Source: a virus
Length of the DNA: 28,982 bases
Reading direction: 5' to 3' (one strand)
IMG/VR virus record: IMGVR_UViG_3300024433_000034
Location: 1-28,982 of that record
Shown: positions 2,786 to 10,844 of the stretch, piece after piece
Layout: every line of letters starts with the position of its first letter
Numbering within the stretch: the first letter of the stretch is position 1
Made by a program: the position numbers and the translations under genes
The notes under the pieces: model-generated
Database searches by the model: none
What the model was told of the DNA's origin: nothing
Seen by the model: the letters and a program-made list of their open reading frames with translations, nothing else

Positions 2786-2918
2786 TTATAACGGCAAAGA
2801 ATATGAGTATGTGGGGCATTTGTGAAAATCAAGCTGATGAATTTATGGCATATTATTATAAGTCCATAGACCAACCGTTAAAGCCGTGCCGCCCCATTAC
2901 TTATATTTATTGTTGTAT
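2786..2918 (+). repeat. attC-like imperfect hairpin, long form
   Basis: It starts five bases after a stop codon with TTATAAC (RYYYAAC-like, fitting in the AAC core) and ends at GTTGTAT (GTTRRRY-like, two mismatches). The arms pair well: AATATGAGTATGTGGGGC near the left end against GCCCCATTACTTATATT near the right, with G-U pairs and a small bulge. About 70 bases of less structured sequence form the apex. This matches the general plan of a long integron attC site, but box agreement is weaker than at 8100-8155. A terminator or another structured repeat is the alternative. Confidence 0.45.
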
Positions 2919-4707: not shown

Positions 4708-6024
4708 ATGAAACTACTCCCAAAACAAGAAAATGCAGTTTATTATCTTAAAGATAAAACAACAACAGAATTAGTTTTTGGTGGCGCTGCAGGTGGTGCA
4801 AAATCTTCTTTGGGTTGTTTATGGTTAATTGAAAATTCACAATCATACCCTGGAACACGTTGGTTAATGGGAAGGAGTAAATTAAAAACATTGAAAGAAA
4901 CTACATTAAACACCTTTTTTGAAATGTCAACAAAACTTGGTGTAAATGATGAATGGAATTATAATGCAATGACAGGTGTTATTAAATGGACAAATGGAAG
5001 CGAAATAATTCTAAAAGATTTATTTTTCTATCCAAGTGATCCAAATTTTGATTCATTAGGTTCATTAGAAATATCAGGTGCTTTTATTGATGAATGCAAT
5101 CAAATAAATTTCAAGGCATGGCAAGTTGTAAAATCAAGAATCAGATACAAATTAACTGAATACGATTTAACACCTAAAATTCTTGGTACATGTAACCCCT
5201 CTAAAAATTGGGTTTACAAATATTTTTTTAGAGCAAAAAAAACAAAAGACATTGCACCATTTAGAAAGTTCATACAATCACTTCCAAAAGACAATCCATT
5301 TCTTCCTGATAGTTATATTGAATCTCTTAGCCAATTAGATGACATTAGCAGGGAAAGGTTATTGAATGGAAATTGGGAATTTGACAATGATAAATCAGCA
5401 ATAATTTCTTATAATGCAATTATGGACTATTGGAACGCAAAACATATTGTTGCAGGTCCAGGTGATGAAAACCATTTAACAATTGATGTTGCAAGAAAAG
5501 GAAAAGATAAAACAGTTTTCAGAGTTTGGAAAGGGTGGTTATGTGTTAAGCGTTACGAAATGGCAATAAGTACAATTCCACAAATTGTTGAAAAAGCACA
5601 AAAAATTCAAGCAGCATTTAAAATTACCAACTCAAATACAATTGCAGATGAAGATGGTGTTGGTGGTGGTGTTGTTGATGTTTTAAGATGTAAAGGATTT
5701 ATTAATAATTCTAAACCTCTTTATGATGCTGCAGCAAAAGATGGAGATATTAATTATAGCAATTTAAAAAATCAATGTTCAATTAGAATGGCCAAAAGAA
5801 TTAATGCAAAAACTGTTGGTGAAACTTGCAATGATAATTCTGTTATTGAATTGACTTCTGAAGAAATGGAACAAATAAAATATGCTGAAATTGATAAAGA
5901 TGGAAAAGCTGCACTTGTTACAAAAGATAAAATAAAAGCATTAATTGGTCGTTCTCCTGATGACTGGGATTCTATAATGATGCGTGAATGGTTTTCTTTG
6001 AGAGTAAAATATGAATCTTTTTAA
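4708..6024 (+). CDS. Phage terminase large subunit
   Basis: The packaging motor ATPase and headful or cos nuclease, 438 residues, complete. The Walker A-type loop is GGAAGGAKSS (residues 25-34), Walker B is GAFIDE (124-129, with Asp128 and Glu129), and the coupling motif is GTCNPS (160-165). The C-terminal RNase H-like nuclease has LTIDVARKGKDKT (Asp260), IADEDGVGGG (Asp314/Asp316) and SPDDWDS (Asp418/Asp419), giving the expected acidic metal-binding set. In phage head operons the portal usually follows directly. Here 3.5 kb intervenes, most of it the hairpin-bounded island, which suggests a later insertion. The natural C-terminus appears intact. Confidence 0.95.
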   Translation: MKLLPKQENAVYYLKDKTTTELVFGGAAGGAKSSLGCLWLIENSQSYPGTRWLMGRSKLKTLKETTLNTFFEMSTKLGVNDEWNYNAMTGVIKWTNGSEIILKDLFFYPSDPNFDSLGSLEISGAFIDECNQINFKAWQVVKSRIRYKLTEYDLTPKILGTCNPSKNWVYKYFFRAKKTKDIAPFRKFIQSLPKDNPFLPDSYIESLSQLDDISRERLLNGNWEFDNDKSAIISYNAIMDYWNAKHIVAGPGDENHLTIDVARKGKDKTVFRVWKGWLCVKRYEMAISTIPQIVEKAQKIQAAFKITNSNTIADEDGVGGGVVDVLRCKGFINNSKPLYDAAAKDGDINYSNLKNQCSIRMAKRINAKTVGETCNDNSVIELTSEEMEQIKYAEIDKDGKAALVTKDKIKALIGRSPDDWDSIMMREWFSLRVKYESF

Positions 6025-6064
6025 AATTTATTACATATTTTTACATACTTGTATTTATTATTTG

Positions 6065-6072
6065 TAAATTTG
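6065..6072 (+). promoter_or_regulatory. Possible Bacteroidetes -7 box (TAAATTTG)
   Basis: TAAATTTG fits the TAnnTTTG -7 consensus of Bacteroidetes promoters and sits a few bases before an ATG in the gap after the terminase. The -33 element is poor: the nearest TTG (6049-6051) is only 13 bases away. It could drive the island genes but is weaker than the promoter at 6507-6536. Confidence 0.3.
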
Positions 6073-6076
6073 TAGT

Positions 6077-6139
6077 ATGAAAATTCAATTAGAACAAATC
6101 AAAAGAACATTTGCTAACGTATTGTATAAAATGCGTTGA
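6077..6139 (+). pseudogene. 20-codon ORF that runs into the first attC-like site
   Basis: After the possible promoter an ATG opens MKIQLEQIKRTFANVLYKMR and then stops inside the short palindrome at the left edge of the island. It looks like the start of a longer gene cut off at the insertion point, with the stop supplied by the incoming sequence. It could also be a functionless leader peptide. No downstream continuation was found on the far side of the island. Confidence 0.3.
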
Positions 6140-6141
6140 GG
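6114..6141 (+). repeat. Short attC-like palindrome at the island's left edge
   Basis: CTAACG-TATT-GTATA-AAATG-CGTTGAG: the outer AACG pairs with CGTT and the inner ATT with AAT around a small loop. The right box GTTGAGG differs from GTTRRRY only in the last base. It is far shorter than the other elements and could be an attC remnant or a secondary recombination site where the first cassette joined. Chance is a real possibility at this length. Confidence 0.3.
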
Positions 6142-6158
6142 AACGAAATGAATTTTAT

Positions 6159-6398
6159 ATGGTGTATGCACCGTTAATTTTAGAAACTATGACTGAACAA
6201 GAGATAAAAGAAGAACTATGCCACTATGACCTACGAAACCCCGATGGTGTTAACTCTTATGGTTTATTAGATGCAGAAGAAATAAAAGAAGAAGGTTACG
6301 GAAACCACAAGAAAGAAGATTGCTCTTGTGATAATTGCTTTTATGGTAGAACCAAGATGGCAGAAGAACTTTTGAAGTATGTATCTAATGGTGCATAA
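6159..6398 (+). CDS. Hypothetical cassette protein, 79 aa
   Basis: Unrecognised small acidic protein. An upstream TTG in frame lies inside the short palindrome, so the ATG beginning MVYAPLILETMTEQ is preferred; a second ATG ten codons later (MTEQEIKEELCHYD) is possible. The C-terminal half has CSCDNCFYG, three close cysteines that may bind metal or be structural, then a short helix. The stop codon lies inside the left box of the next hairpin (GCATAAC), the arrangement seen in integron cassettes where the gene ends at the attC site. Confidence 0.55.
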   Translation: MVYAPLILETMTEQEIKEELCHYDLRNPDGVNSYGLLDAEEIKEEGYGNHKKEDCSCDNCFYGRTKMAEELLKYVSNGA

Positions 6399-6454
6399 CG
6401 GTTAGTATATGAACCGTACGCCTTTAGGCTATGGTTTTATATACCGTGTTAGTT
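6393..6454 (+). repeat. attC-like hairpin 1
   Basis: The left box GCATAAC matches RYYYAAC at six of seven positions and the right box GTTAGTT matches GTTRRRY at six of seven. Between them the arms pair in steps: GTATAT with ATATAC, AACC with GGTT, and GCC with GGC around a TTTA-like apex, separated by single unpaired bases, as expected of a folded single-stranded attC site. The left box overlaps the upstream gene's stop codon. It shares the ATATGAA inner-arm segment with the hairpin at 8100-8155 but differs elsewhere. Confidence 0.55.
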
Positions 6455-6506
6455 GCTTTTATTTTTGAGAGGTGGAAAAATAATTTAATCTTTTTTATAA
6501 TATTAC

Positions 6507-6536
6507 TTGTATATGTAAAATATATACGTATATTTG
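6507..6536 (+). promoter_or_regulatory. Bacteroidetes-type promoter inside cassette 2
   Basis: TTG at 6507-6509, a 19-base spacer and TATATTTG at 6529-6536 give a full match to the Bacteroidetes primary-sigma consensus (TTG, 17-23 bases, TAnnTTTG). Transcription would begin a few bases downstream, leaving a leader of about 25-30 bases before the 51-residue gene. Cassettes usually rely on an external promoter, so an internal one would let the downstream units be expressed independently of phage operons. Confidence 0.65.
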
Positions 6537-6570
6537 TAGGGTATTAACGAAGTAACTAAAACAAAAAGAT

Positions 6571-6726
6571 ATGAAAAACTTAGACTACAGAAACGAAATT
6601 ACAAGATTAGAAGATTTGTTAAACTCTCATAACTGCCCAATATCTTGGAGCGATATGAATAATAAGATAATAGAATTAAAAAAAGAGCATAACAAAGAGC
6701 AGGGTTTTAAAGTGTGGAATGTTTAA
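6571..6726 (+). CDS. Small hypothetical cassette protein, 51 aa
   Basis: Not recognised. It reads as a short helical protein (MKNLDYRNEITRLEDLL, then ISWSDMNNKIIELKKEHNKE) with an aromatic tail, FKVWNV. A helical-hairpin fold is plausible. It has its own well-formed upstream promoter and an A-rich leader (AACTAAAACAAAAAGAT) before the ATG, which supports expression. It is followed by an inverted repeat and a degenerate attC-like hairpin. Confidence 0.6.
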   Translation: MKNLDYRNEITRLEDLLNSHNCPISWSDMNNKIIELKKEHNKEQGFKVWNV

Positions 6727-6742
6727 GATAAGCAAATAGCGA

Positions 6743-6768
6743 AAGCTACGAGAGTTAACACTCGGCTT
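6743..6768 (+). repeat. 26-bp inverted repeat centred on GTTAAC
   Basis: AAGC-TA-CGAG-A-GTTAAC-A-CTCG-GCTT: two four-base outer and inner arm pairs around a self-complementary centre, interrupted only by a TA on the left. It abuts and shares GCTT with the next hairpin. It might be the terminator-like end of the 51-residue gene or part of a rearranged attC site. Confidence 0.5.
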
Positions 6769-6834
6769 GTTAACGGTTTATTGCCTGAATATATGACAGC
6801 ACGGAAAGACGGCATTTTTATACACACGACAAGC
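6765..6834 (+). repeat. Degenerate attC-like hairpin 2
   Basis: The outer ends GCTTGT and ACAAGC are exact complements and an inner TGCC pairs with GGCA, but the arms between are poorly matched. The left end contains GTTAAC followed by GG, as in other members, while the right box (GACAAGC) differs from GTTRRRY at two positions. It lies between two gene units, which is the main reason to group it with the others. Confidence 0.3.
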
Positions 6835-6844
6835 AAAAAAAATT

Positions 6845-7075
6845 ATGAAACAATACGGTGAGCAAATGGCTAATAACATTCTAAAACAAGCATTGGACAG
6901 GGATGAAGTTATAGAATTAGGGATAAAAGATATTGCTGCGGATAATATTGCAGATGTATTAATGTATAGATGTATTAGAATTTTAGACTTTTACGAGCCT
7001 GATATGCTACACGAAGCACCACAAGCAAGGGAACAAGTATTATATAAGATTAAATCAAAATTAGATGAGTTATGA
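6845..7075 (+). CDS. Hypothetical cassette protein, 76 aa
   Basis: Unrecognised acidic, helical protein starting MKQYGEQMANNILKQALDRD and ending in KIKSKLDEL. No Cys, membrane or catalytic motif is seen. It is the first of four genes joined by ATGA overlaps, so this unit is a small operon rather than a one-gene cassette. The ATG is preceded by AAGCAAAAAAAATT, which begins at the right end of the weak hairpin. Confidence 0.6.
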   Translation: MKQYGEQMANNILKQALDRDEVIELGIKDIAADNIADVLMYRCIRILDFYEPDMLHEAPQAREQVLYKIKSKLDEL

Positions 7076-7284
7076 TTGATGAAGAAAAAGTTAAAATAAT
7101 AGAACAAGGTAAACAAACGTCTATTTTTATAGATGATACTCTTCAGCAAGTTAAAACGCTTATTGAAATAAGAAAAGTTTTTTGTTTAAAGTTTAATTCA
7201 ACATCTAACGAGAAAAGTTGCAATACGATATTTTATGCAATTGAAGATATAAATAACAATATTAAAAACTTATTAGGGTTATGA
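7072..7284 (+). CDS. Hypothetical cassette protein, 70 aa
   Basis: Not assigned. A small, mainly helical protein with two cysteines (FCLKFN and KSCNTI) and a C-terminus rich in Asn and Ile (EDINNNIKNLLGL). Both ends overlap neighbours by four bases, so translation is probably coupled to the genes on each side. Joint acquisition with its three partners suggests a shared function that I cannot name. Confidence 0.6.
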   Translation: MIDEEKVKIIEQGKQTSIFIDDTLQQVKTLIEIRKVFCLKFNSTSNEKSCNTIFYAIEDINNNIKNLLGL

Positions 7285-7577
7285 CACAAGAAGATTATAT
7301 TTTAAACAGGGCTAAGAACCTAAAAAAAATGATTGTTAAGCGTAGAAAACTTAATGAGAGAATACACCTTTTTGAGCAAATGAGCGATAAGGCATGGCAA
7401 AAACTAAATGCAGAACTTCATTGGTTAAGCATGGAGATAGAAAAGGAAAAAGAAAGAATAGGGTTTGTATTAGGGCATTTAACTTTGTTTGAATTACAGG
7501 ATGAATATAATCCAAGTGGTTGGCATAGATATGAAGGAATAAAAGGTGAAATGCAAAATTTAAAACTTGAACGATGA
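7281..7577 (+). CDS. Hypothetical helical cassette protein, 98 aa
   Basis: Unrecognised. The first two thirds look like a charged helical hairpin or short coiled coil (LKKMIVKRRKLNERIHLF, then WLSMEIEKEKERIGFVL), followed by a more polar, Trp-containing segment (NPSGWHRYEGIKGEM). It overlaps the ribbon-helix-helix-like gene by ATGA. The coiled coil and the neighbouring DNA-binding-type protein would fit a small regulatory or toxin-antitoxin-like group, but no toxin fold is evident, so this stays speculative. Confidence 0.6.
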   Translation: MTQEDYILNRAKNLKKMIVKRRKLNERIHLFEQMSDKAWQKLNAELHWLSMEIEKEKERIGFVLGHLTLFELQDEYNPSGWHRYEGIKGEMQNLKLER

Positions 7578-7702
7578 AAAAGAAACTAATAGAAATACCA
7601 ACCGATATATTTAAAAAGATACAAGAGTTAGCAAAGGCAAACGAAAGGAGTGATAATAAACAGATTGTTTACTTGCTTAAAAAAGCGTTGGAAGAAAAAT
7701 AA
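7574..7702 (+). CDS. Ribbon-helix-helix-like small DNA-binding protein
   Basis: A 42-residue protein with the layout of an Arc/CopG-type ribbon-helix-helix monomer: a short strand (KKLIEIP), a first helix starting at TDIFKKIQELAKAN, a turn with SDNKQ, and a second helix (IVYLLKKALEEK). These proteins dimerise and bind operators, often as antitoxins or autorepressors. It ends the four-gene unit, overlapping the previous gene by ATGA, and its stop directly precedes an attC-like hairpin. The fold call is moderate given the small size. Confidence 0.55.
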   Translation: MKKKLIEIPTDIFKKIQELAKANERSDNKQIVYLLKKALEEK

Positions 7703-7785
7703 TTGCAACTAATGCACTAAGCTATGTTTTGTTATGCTCTACGCATGAATGAGGATAGCATAATAAAATATAACTGGTGTTAGGT
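7703..7785 (+). repeat. attC-like hairpin 3 with a 19-bp inner stem
   Basis: AGCTATGTTTTGTTATGCT (7720-7738) pairs with AGCATAATAAAATATAACT (7757-7775) across all 19 positions, counting three G-U pairs, around an 18-base loop. The right box GTTAGGT (7779-7785) fits GTTRRRY exactly. The left box is degraded (AACTAAT at 7707-7713, five of seven). Pairing of CTAA with TTAG extends the outer arm. Placement straight after a stop codon is as in the other members. Confidence 0.55.
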
Positions 7786-7819
7786 TTAGTTGAATAAATA
7801 ATAATTTAAAAAATAAAAG

Positions 7820-8095
7820 ATGAGTAAAGAATATAAAATTAATAGTTTTAATGACTTATGTAATTTAGTAAATGATAACAATTTAGATGTGTTAGCTGAA
7901 GATTTAAAGAATTGGTTAGTTAGTTATCATTTTGCTATTAAGGAAATACGAAAATTACACCCTGAAGTAACGGATGGAAAAACAAACACAGAAATAGCTA
8001 AAGGTTCTTTTACTTGGATAGATGACAATGAAACAAAAATAAAAGGTGTAGTAATTGAACAAAACGGAAAAACAGAGCGTGTAGATTTTGAGTAA
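7820..8095 (+). CDS. Hypothetical cassette protein, 91 aa
   Basis: I do not recognise a named family. The N-terminal half is helical (INSFNDLCNLVNDNNLDVLA, then an LKNWLVSYHFAIKEIRKL helix). The C-terminal half is beta-like and ends in an acidic tail (FTWIDDNETKIKGVVIEQNG onward). It is a single-gene unit flanked by attC-like hairpins on both sides, the clearest one-gene cassette in the window. The leader after the preceding right box (TTTAGTTGAATAAATAATAA and more A-rich sequence) resembles that before the methyltransferase. Confidence 0.65.
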   Translation: MSKEYKINSFNDLCNLVNDNNLDVLAEDLKNWLVSYHFAIKEIRKLHPEVTDGKTNTEIAKGSFTWIDDNETKIKGVVIEQNGKTERVDFE

Positions 8096-8099
8096 TTAA

Positions 8100-8155
8100 A
8101 CCTAACGGTTTGAATATGAAACGGCTTTTTCGCTGTTTTATATTTGATGTTAGGC
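8100..8155 (+). repeat. attC-like hairpin 4, best match to consensus
   Basis: This is the strongest element: the left box ACCTAAC is an exact RYYYAAC and the right box GTTAGGC an exact GTTRRRY, and CCTAAC and GTTAGG are perfect complements. The inner arms AATATGAAACGGC (8113-8125) and GCTGTTTTATATT (8132-8144) pair at all 13 positions with two G-U pairs, closing a six-base loop. Unpaired spacer bases between outer and inner arms match the bulged structure used by integron integrases to choose the bottom strand. Length (56 bases) is at the short end of known attC sites. Confidence 0.65.
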
Positions 8156-8182
8156 TTAGTTATTAAATTAAAAAATTAGAAT

Positions 8183-9142
8183 ATGAAAAATGGAAATGGA
8201 ATAAATGTAGTTAGTTGTTTTGACGGTATGAGCTGTTTACAAATAGCACTTGGACAATTAGGTATTAAAGTGAATAAGTACTTTGCAAGCGAAGTTGATA
8301 AATACGCAATGAAGGTTACACAAGCAAACTACCCCAACACAATACAGTTAGGAAGTGTTGAGTTTGTTACAAAAGGAATGATTAATAACGAGATTGATTT
8401 ACTTGCTGGAGGAAGCCCTTGCCAAGGATTTAGTTTTGCAGGTAAGCAATTAAATTTTGAGGACCCAAGAAGTAAACTGTTTTTTGAGTTTGTGAGATTG
8501 AAAAAAGAACTGAACCCAAAGTACTTCTTTTTAGAGAATGTGAAAATGAAAAAAGAATACCAAGATATTATTAGTAGTTATTTAGGTTGCGAACCTGTAA
8601 TTATAAATAGTGCTTTGGTTTCTGCTCAAAATAGAGTTCGTTTATTCTGGACTAATATACCTGGTATTGAGCAACCAAAAGATAAAGAAATTTATTTAGC
8701 TGATATTATTGAAAACGGGATAGTTGATAGAGATAAAAGCTATTGCATTGATGCTAACTATTGGAAAGGTGGGAACCTTAAACAATACTTTGAAAAAAGC
8801 AGAAGGCAATTAGTTTTCTGTGGTGCGATGCGTGGACGTTATATTGTAGATGGTAAGCGACAAGATGGGAAAATGAAAACAGCAGGATTGACTACTCAAA
8901 GAATGGAAATTAGGTATGACGGTAAAACAAATACTATCACAACCGTTCAAAAGGATAACTATGCTGTTTTTATAGATGGCTTTAGAAAATTAACACCAAT
9001 TGAATGTGAGAGGCTACAAACTGTACCCGACAATTACACAAACCACGTAAGCAATAGTCAAAGGTATAAAATGCTTGGCAATGGCTGGACAGTTGATGTA
9101 ATTACTCATATATTAAAAAAAATGTACTTAGGAAGGAATTAA
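8183..9142 (+). CDS. C5-cytosine DNA methyltransferase
   Basis: Transfers a methyl group from S-adenosylmethionine to cytosine C5 in DNA. The 319 residues contain the conserved motifs in order: motif I VVSCFDGMSC (9-18), motif IV GGSPCQGFS with catalytic Cys80, motif VI FLENV (116-120), motif VIII QNRVRLFW (149-156), motif IX RKLTPIECERLQTVPDNYT (268-286) and motif X MLGNGWTV (297-304). Motif I has GMSC in place of the usual FxGxG, a variant I associate with some phage enzymes. The variable target region is about 170-260, so the recognised sequence is unknown. It has no partner endonuclease, which suggests protection of phage DNA from restriction. It is the last gene of the island. Confidence 0.95.
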   Translation: MKNGNGINVVSCFDGMSCLQIALGQLGIKVNKYFASEVDKYAMKVTQANYPNTIQLGSVEFVTKGMINNEIDLLAGGSPCQGFSFAGKQLNFEDPRSKLFFEFVRLKKELNPKYFFLENVKMKKEYQDIISSYLGCEPVIINSALVSAQNRVRLFWTNIPGIEQPKDKEIYLADIIENGIVDRDKSYCIDANYWKGGNLKQYFEKSRRQLVFCGAMRGRYIVDGKRQDGKMKTAGLTTQRMEIRYDGKTNTITTVQKDNYAVFIDGFRKLTPIECERLQTVPDNYTNHVSNSQRYKMLGNGWTVDVITHILKKMYLGRN

Positions 9143-9149
9143 GCATAAC
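9143..9149 (+). repeat. attC left half-site only
   Basis: GCATAAC directly after the methyltransferase stop is identical to the left box at 6393-6399, and is followed by AAGCGG, but no complementary arm or GTTRRRY box is found before the next gene about 40 bases on. It looks like a truncated end to the array. Confidence 0.3.
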
Positions 9150-9187
9150 AAGCGGATAAAGAACACTACACATGTAAAAAATAGATT

Positions 9188-9442
9188 ATGATTATAAATT
9201 ACGAATATGGCATTTCATTTAATGGATTCATTTACGGATGGAAAGATAAAAAACTTTTTAGGTTGCCTCAAACTATAAATAAAAGATTTCTTCCAATAAA
9301 AGAACTCAAAATTATAAAGGTTGGTAATAATAAAGGCTATTTATTGAATCAAAAAAGACTTTCTTTATCACAATTAGAATCAATGACAGGTATAATAAAC
9401 TTCAAATATGAAAAGACTAATTCAAAAGATTGTCCATTTTAA
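9188..9442 (+). CDS. Hypothetical phage protein, 84 aa
   Basis: Unrecognised. The sequence alternates aromatic and basic residues (ISFNGFIYGWKDKKLFRLP) and has a repeated basic-hydrophobic pattern (ELKIIKVGNNKGYLL), suggesting a small beta-rich domain followed by a helix with LSLSQLESMTG. Codon use resembles the phage backbone rather than the island, so it is probably an original gene between terminase and portal. It is preceded by the half-site and followed by a candidate promoter for the head operon. Confidence 0.6.
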   Translation: MIINYEYGISFNGFIYGWKDKKLFRLPQTINKRFLPIKELKIIKVGNNKGYLLNQKRLSLSQLESMTGIINFKYEKTNSKDCPF

Positions 9443-9455
9443 TTAAAAAAAATAG

Positions 9456-9484
9456 TTTATGTATTATTTTTTTTTCTAACTTTG
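9456..9484 (+). promoter_or_regulatory. Candidate promoter for the head operon
   Basis: TAACTTTG at 9477-9484 fits the TAnnTTTG -7 element. A TTT at 9456-9458, 18 bases upstream, stands where the TTG is expected, so the -33 part is imperfect. It lies in the 88-base gap before the portal gene, a likely place to start late transcription. Confidence 0.45.
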
Positions 9485-9492
9485 TTCAAAAG

Positions 9493-9507
9493 CAATATTT
9501 AATATTG
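9493..9507 (+). promoter_or_regulatory. Possible operator: perfect 15-bp palindrome
   Basis: CAATATT-T-AATATTG is a perfect seven-base inverted repeat with a one-base centre, just downstream of where transcription from the candidate promoter would start. A repressor or activator site for late genes is plausible; A/T-rich palindromes also arise by chance in such DNA. Confidence 0.35.
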
Positions 9508-9530
9508 TTTGAAATTTCTGTTATTATCTA

Positions 9531-10844
9531 ATGAATAAGATTACAAGAACATTCAATACCATTATTAAAAATCTTGGTACAATAGCAGTTGATAATTATT
9601 CTTCTGCAAAACTTATCACCTCACAGATTTACAACAATGGTTTCCTTTTTGCTTTTCATAAGTTCAACACCGTTATTAAAAATGGCTATGCTTCAAATAC
9701 TGATGCTTATTCTATTGTAAGTAAAATTATTAAAACAGGTGCATCAATTCCTTATTTGATTGTGAATAAATTACCTGATGGAACTGAAGAAATTATTACT
9801 GAAGGTGCTTTTTACGAATCAGTAATGCGCCCAAACAAAAGACAAAACAAATTTGAATTTACTGAAGATGCATTAGGTTATCAATTAATAACAGGGAATG
9901 AAATTTTAACAGGTTTAGTTCCTGCAGGTTTTAAAATGATAACACAAGTAAATATTGTTCCACCTCAACTTGTTACAATTAAAAGAAATGGAAAATCTTT
10001 GTTTGATTATTCAATGAATTATATTGTTAATTGGAAAGATTGGAGTACAACAATTAAGGAAGAAGATGTAAAACACATAAAATATTTCAATCCAACAACA
10101 GAAGGAGTTGAATCAGGAATGGGTTTAAGTCCTTTACAAGCAGCCTATAAAACATTAGAAACTTCTAATGAATTAATGACTGCAGGAGCATCTGCATTAA
10201 AAAACAGAGGTGCAAACGGTTTACTTTCTTCTGATAGTGATAGGCCAATGGACAAAGAAGAAAAGGATGACTTGCAACAAACAACAAATGTAAAACTTGG
10301 TCAAGCTGACAAATTTAATAGAGTAGTTGCAACAACTGCAAAAGTAAAATATACACAATTCGGTTTAAGTCCTTCTGATTTAAAAATGGTTGAAAATGGA
10401 GTACTTACATTAAGACAATTATGTAATGTTTGGGGTGCAGATTCTTCAAATTTTAATGATCCTGCAAATAAAAAGTTTAGTAATTTAAAAGAAGGTCAAA
10501 AATCTTTTTATGTAAATGCAGTATTACCACCATTAGAAAGGCATTTATTAGGTTATAAGGAATTAGTTATTGCAGGATGGAATGAAGAAGATGGTGCAAA
10601 TTATGATATTCGTTTGGATTTATCAAATATTGAATCATTACAAGCAGACCAAAACCAAAAAGCACAAAAACAAGTTAATCTTGCGAAGGGAATGACTGAT
10701 GTAATAATGAGAGTTGGTGAAGGAAAGATAAGTGCAGCATCAGGTGTTAAATTACTTGAAATGAATTTTGATTTAACAACTGCAGAAGCAGAAGCATTAA
10801 TTGCAGATACTACAAACCCAACACCAACAGGAAATGAAAACTAA
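9531..10844 (+). CDS. Phage portal protein
   Basis: The dodecameric portal forms the DNA entry channel at one capsid vertex. The 437-residue length and sequence fit the HK97-type portal family: an N-terminal segment with YSIVSKIIKTGASIPYLIVN, a core containing EFTEDALGYQLITGNEIL and MGLSPLQAAYKTLETSNEL, and later GVLTLRQLCNVWGADSSNF and FYVNAVLPPLERHLLGYKEL, all typical portal landmarks. The C-terminus is Thr/Pro-rich. It is the first gene of the head operon, followed by protease and capsid genes. The ATG follows TTATTATCTA rather than a purine-rich site. Confidence 0.92.
   Translation: MNKITRTFNTIIKNLGTIAVDNYSSAKLITSQIYNNGFLFAFHKFNTVIKNGYASNTDAYSIVSKIIKTGASIPYLIVNKLPDGTEEIITEGAFYESVMRPNKRQNKFEFTEDALGYQLITGNEILTGLVPAGFKMITQVNIVPPQLVTIKRNGKSLFDYSMNYIVNWKDWSTTIKEEDVKHIKYFNPTTEGVESGMGLSPLQAAYKTLETSNELMTAGASALKNRGANGLLSSDSDRPMDKEEKDDLQQTTNVKLGQADKFNRVVATTAKVKYTQFGLSPSDLKMVENGVLTLRQLCNVWGADSSNFNDPANKKFSNLKEGQKSFYVNAVLPPLERHLLGYKELVIAGWNEEDGANYDIRLDLSNIESLQADQNQKAQKQVNLAKGMTDVIMRVGEGKISAASGVKLLEMNFDLTTAEAEALIADTTNPTPTGNEN

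Follow-up and report, generated by a model that had tools for sequence, protein, structure and literature searches.

What is the short inverted repeat at positions 8100-8155 of this virus record, to which of its neighboring genes does it belong, and what might move it? The DNA analyzed here, which we call the window, is 28,982 bases long, and everything we say about genome context covers those bases. The window is a phage record encoding a terminase (PF04466), a portal (PF04860) and a tape measure protein. It represents a tailed virus of flavobacteria-like bacteria, with Flavobacterium phage 11b and Cellulophaga phage phi10:1 as relatives. Between the genes for the terminase large subunit (4708-6024) and the portal (9531-10844) lies an insert with a cassette cluster (6025-9530, plus strand). 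The terminase-portal gap is 3.5 kb in the window versus 35-127 bp in eleven relatives (35 bp in phage 11b, 57 bp in phi10:1 and 90-127 bp in nine virus contigs). Three sites that we call E0, E2 and E5 all fall inside this insert, E5 being the repeat in question. The original prediction had described it as an attC site between two cassette genes in a cassette cluster, and both the insert and the score of the site against a held-out covariance model bear this out.

We confirmed that E5 (8100-8155, plus strand) is a real, attC-type site between two cassette genes, using its boxes, its folding, a strict-box scan and the held-out covariance model. Sequence inspection and the scan agree that both terminal boxes, each of 7 bases, match the RYYYAAC / GTTRRRY consensus exactly, as predicted: ACCTAAC at 8100-8106 and GTTAGGC at 8149-8155. 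The box criterion that we used for attC membership calls RYYYAAC the R'' box and GTTRRRY the R' box; we name the boxes by attC polarity, inverted relative to the genes, and in E5 the plus-strand ACCTAAC is R' and GTTAGGC is R''. The cut would fall between A8105 and C8106, and G8107 and the stem follow. The inner arms, GAATATGAAACGGC and GCTGTTTTATATTT, give 14 paired positions on the plus strand, three of them G.T pairs that turn into A.C mismatches on the bottom strand; the stem lies where it had been placed, and its supposedly complete pairing does not extend to the bottom strand. The box-to-arm spacers, both expected to be 5 bases long, measured 5 on the left and 3 on the right, and are unpaired, and the plus strand folds as a hairpin with the unpaired central spacer that characterizes attC sites.

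Folding with DNA parameters gave -9.7 kcal/mol for the plus strand (z -4.6; equaled by 0/200 shuffles) and -5.2 kcal/mol for the minus strand (z -2.3; equaled by 10/200 shuffles). The plus-strand fold is preferred because the three pairs that are G.T there are A.C on the other strand. The bottom strand had been named as the one to fold, and this has to be reversed, as it is the plus strand that is more stable and that bears the bottom-strand signature AAC-G. A search for extrahelical bases at the expected places, which had been suggested as a check, revealed none in the inner stem of E5, and folding and the aligned sites show conserved G.T pairs instead. This counts against our reading; attC sites from which the extrahelical base has been deleted still recombine (PMC2727003).

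Covariance scoring favored the site. A model trained on 20 sites, taken from other viruses and prophages and none from the window, scored E5 at 31.8 bits (E 2.8e-5), and the best match outside E0, E2 and E5 had an E of 0.17, E-values that are rough because the calibrations were short. Strict boxes combined with 12 or more contiguous stem pairs occur once in the window, at E5, versus once in 400 dinucleotide-shuffled windows. The held-out model is the clean test, since a further model, R2, was trained with E5 and E2 and its scores for both are inflated. We also tried a two-box energy scan as a site finder, which recovered E5 along with coding false positives, so strict-box shuffles and covariance models were used instead. 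E5 had been put forward as the single strongest piece of evidence for cassettes, but it is outscored by the site at 6393-6454, and the comparison with relatives carries more weight than either.

The remainder of the insert is likewise laid out as sites followed by genes, all on the plus strand. E0 (6112-6171), whose right box is one base short, was in the training set of neither covariance model and reached E 2e-5 with the held-out one; its cassette gene (6189-6398) encodes 69 aa from the ATG at 6189. E2 (6393-6454) is the top-scoring site in the window (E 2e-7, held-out model) and precedes a multi-gene unit (6571-7702) of small ORFs (6571-6726, 6845-7075, 7072-7284, 7281-7577 and 7577-7702) for which no family match was found. 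From its sequence, we propose that this unit ends at GCAACTAAT, whose complementarity to GTTAGTTGC in E2 covers 8 core bases and is not unique in the window. E4 (7707-7785) is a degenerate attC-like site in which AAT replaces AAC, and the degeneracy of this neighbor of E5 counts against our reading. Its GTTAGGTTTA end matches the E5 box at 11/12 bases, the best among 2148 candidate boxes in the window, and its cassette gene (7820-8095) encodes 91 aa with a weak match to phrog_26841, of unknown function. The cassette gene of E5 (8183-9142) encodes a C5-cytosine DNA methyltransferase of 319 aa, with a full-length PF00145 match and a PCQG motif, and it is the only PADLOC match in the window. At the 3' end of the E5 cassette stands the box GCATAAC (9143-9149), complementary at 10/12 bases to GTTAGGCTTAGT after E5, a match tied with two other places in the window. 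A possible attC-like site with a long loop, E1 (2786-2917, plus strand), has a 158-aa gene on one side and a SEC-C gene on the other; it was not scored by the covariance models.

With three sites at E below 3e-5 in the held-out model and no intI nearby, the cluster has what defines a CALIN (at least two attC sites, no intI nearby): it is an integron-less cassette cluster in a phage, of a kind published in 2023 (PMC9892861). No integrase was found among the window ORFs read or tested, in a record that may be incomplete, and no intI was seen in the window, which sets the cluster apart from a complete integron with intI, attI and a Pc promoter. At the end of the array stands the motif AACAAGCGGATAA (9147-9159, plus strand). 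DNA repeats across the whole window are mostly chance in AT-rich sequence, and one of them, D16, yielded this motif; the only two exact copies of AACAAGCGRATAA in the window, at 9-21 and 9147-9159, both mark array ends, where each comes immediately behind an AAC that resembles a box. A related motif, AACAACGGATAAAACAAG, stands at two array ends of the Polaribacter phage P12002L. A search for the array-end motif beside host IntI genes gave no convincing match. Judging by these sequences, the array ends marked by AACAAGCGRATAA are possibly docking sites.

That the gene of E5 is the downstream methyltransferase, and the polarity of the unit therefore inverted, had been missed at first. Four markers agree that it is the 5' end of the phage sites that holds the recombining R' box: the AAC-G context, spacer asymmetry, the more stable strand and natural crossover points. 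This polarity is inverted relative to bacterial cassettes, and it follows that the folding strand is the coding (plus) strand and not the bottom strand. A G follows AAC in 20/20 aligned phage sites (G8107 in E5), in each case at the 5' site end and on the coding strand, and AAC followed by G is the signature of R' on the bottom strand (PMC2727003). Spacers of the phage sites are mostly 5-6 / 2-4, the mirror of those in arrays adjoining true IntI genes, which are mostly 2-3 / 5-6 and in which genes run in the standard direction 16 times versus 2. The same site strand is the more stable one in 31/32 phage sites and 55/61 chromosomal sites. The downstream gene is co-oriented with the folding strand at 33/33 viral sites versus 5/60 Flavobacteriaceae chromosomal sites (Fisher 3e-20); sites from one contig are not independent, and with one site per contig 16/16 are co-oriented. 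On the Flavobacteriaceae chromosomes, sites of the same family have an opposed downstream gene in 55/60 cases. Six more site listings from three phage records, partially overlapping the earlier set, agree on polarity. Because gene direction was tested and the standard order (gene then attC, the gene parallel to the attC top strand) was not found, we do not class the units in the window as standard cassettes. attC clusters in phages, this phage group included, and their methyltransferase cargo have already been published (PMC9892861); a literature search that covered few subscription papers or preprints found no paper describing a uniform inverted cassette polarity in phages.

Related phages provide a record of how such units move. 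In a pattern scan, such sites turned up in 14 virus stretches and three stretches of a bacterial genome collection, two of the latter looking like prophages by gene content. Both helices covary across 20 aligned sites, with 8/15 pairs changed on both sides and a covariation score of 0.229 versus at most 0.076 for slid versions. Unit ends are complementary in other phages too, as in the window, and 13/20 downstream proteins scanned in other phages and prophages match DNA methyltransferase families above the Pfam curated cut-off, as does the downstream methyltransferase of the window. Two otherwise different phages (L002 and L003) have in common a 214-aa gene and its site, and the identical stretch begins a little outside the box that precedes the site and extends to the box that follows the gene. 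The Polaribacter phages P12002L and P12002S are ~99% identical over shared blocks and differ by whole units of site plus gene; the breaks adjoining sites fall at RYYYAAC, the 5' end of the site, and none at GTTRRRY. Elsewhere in this pair (L086 and L087, ~23.2-24.7 kb, reverse complement), 80-bp blocks are swapped between two places in the structural region. No second copy of the E5 unit was found in another context, which counts against our reading, and the mobility of E5 itself is therefore something we infer rather than demonstrate.

We also looked for an enzyme. Tyrosine recombinases (PF00589) were absent from 13 phage records and IntI (TIGR02249) from 400 Flavobacteriaceae genomes, and both results count against our reading. 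TIGR02249 scored above cut-off in 105/396 genomes of a phylum sample, and 306 virus stretches in IMG/VR encode confirmed IntI relatives; among the best 80 of these 306 IntI-bearing contigs, none had a phage-type attC near IntI, and no donor was found there. In E. coli, IntI1 recombines P12002L_attC2, a site of phage P12002L and one of several phage sites with published recombination by an integron integrase (PMC9892861). A covariance model of host attC sites adjoining IntI, R1, gave no significant score to the window sites, which counts against our reading; it caught the outer stem only and is uninformative for phage sites. attC-like single sites occur in 65/301 genomes of the Flavobacteriaceae, the family in which 400 genomes lacked IntI.

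We favor the reading, with a probability of roughly 0.78, that E5 is an attC site of integron type, lying in a phage cassette cluster that has no integrase and whose units are moved by an integron-type recombinase in trans. The E5 unit would consist of the site and the downstream cytosine methyltransferase gene and would end at the next RYYYAA. The coding strand would be the one that recombines: it would form the hairpin and be cut at RYYYAA^C, at the 5' site end, by a tyrosine recombinase of integron type provided in trans. Units would then travel from phage to phage, either as circles or through exchange at individual sites, joining head to tail, and the cargo, mostly DNA methyltransferases, may shield phage DNA from host restriction.

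The most serious competitor, though a clearly minor one, is a distinct recombinase, host Xer-type or other, that moves flavobacterial phage units through attC-like hairpins in place of an integron integrase. The lack of IntI in 400 Flavobacteriaceae genomes and in the phage records, the clean exchange between near-identical Polaribacter phages, and the lack of phage-type sites near the gene in the best 80 of 306 IntI-bearing virus contigs would all suit such an enzyme. Against it stand the recombination of P12002L_attC2 by IntI1 (PMC9892861) and the frequency of IntI elsewhere in the phylum sample, and a donor could be hidden by sampling or host range. Exchange by homologous or illegitimate recombination in the short conserved boxes, with no site-specific enzyme, seems unlikely. 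The boxes are shared sequence, phage genomes are mosaic, and Qi et al. suggest such routes in some cases (PMC9892861), but in several unrelated pairs the breaks lie no more than a few bases from AAC and only at one end of the site, while the longer conserved stem and the GTT end go unused.

Similarly improbable, and already disfavored, is a standard polarity, with E5 assigned to the 91-aa gene upstream of it and recombination on the bottom strand: it is the usual integron arrangement and the chromosomal sites of the same family fit it, but in the phages the crossovers, the asymmetry of the spacers, the AAC-G context and the stability of the strands all favor the reverse. We give the least credence to an RNA element, a terminator or mRNA stem-loop between phage genes with an incidental likeness to attC. 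The stability of the coding-strand fold, G.T pairs that would be G-U in mRNA, and the position of E5 between co-directional genes are what such an element would show. However, the Flavobacteriaceae chromosomal sites fold better on the same site strand though their genes run opposite to it, so that there the fold is absent from mRNA; in addition, whole-unit exchange breaks at the boxes, and Rfam had no match in the window.

An integron-type attC site served in trans remains our preferred reading. More speculative, and of low probability, is a reading in which flavobacterial phages keep a cassette pool of their own. It would consist chiefly of methyltransferases that counter restriction, their genes would be inverted with respect to attC, a recombinase other than classical IntI would move it, and its units would dock at a conserved array-end site. 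A non-classical mover is considered because the host family appears to be without IntI, and with such inverted genes, cassettes from bacterial integrons would insert antisense. Unit exchange between phages whose shared blocks are ~99% identical offers a concrete route for swapping anti-restriction genes among phages, and raises the question of which recombinase acts in a family of bacteria whose sampled genomes yielded no integron integrase.

Among the closest known systems is the CALIN of P12002L (Qi et al. 2023, PMC9892861), which, like the window, belongs to a flavobacterial tailed phage without an integrase; its attC sites come from the same sequence family and lie between genes for DNA methyltransferases. 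The insert of the window differs in lying between terminase and portal. That paper reports divergent attC directions, whereas we find a uniform inverted polarity in P12002L, P12002S and other phages. Bacteroidota chromosomal arrays with IntI (L150-L169) share with the window their boxes, unpaired spacers, stem and head-to-tail arrangement, but have GC-rich sites, often with longer loops, an intI, and genes in the standard direction (16/18). The attC-like single sites of Flavobacteriaceae chromosomes (L170-L251) resemble the phage sites in matching the same covariance model and in strand stability; unlike them, they have flanking genes of opposite direction (55/60), in a family sample without IntI. 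In 2023, attC sites on phages were described as occasional captures (PMC9892861). Our comparison suggests that phages share a cassette pool, which has a polarity of its own and is distinct from host cassettes though the sites are of one family.
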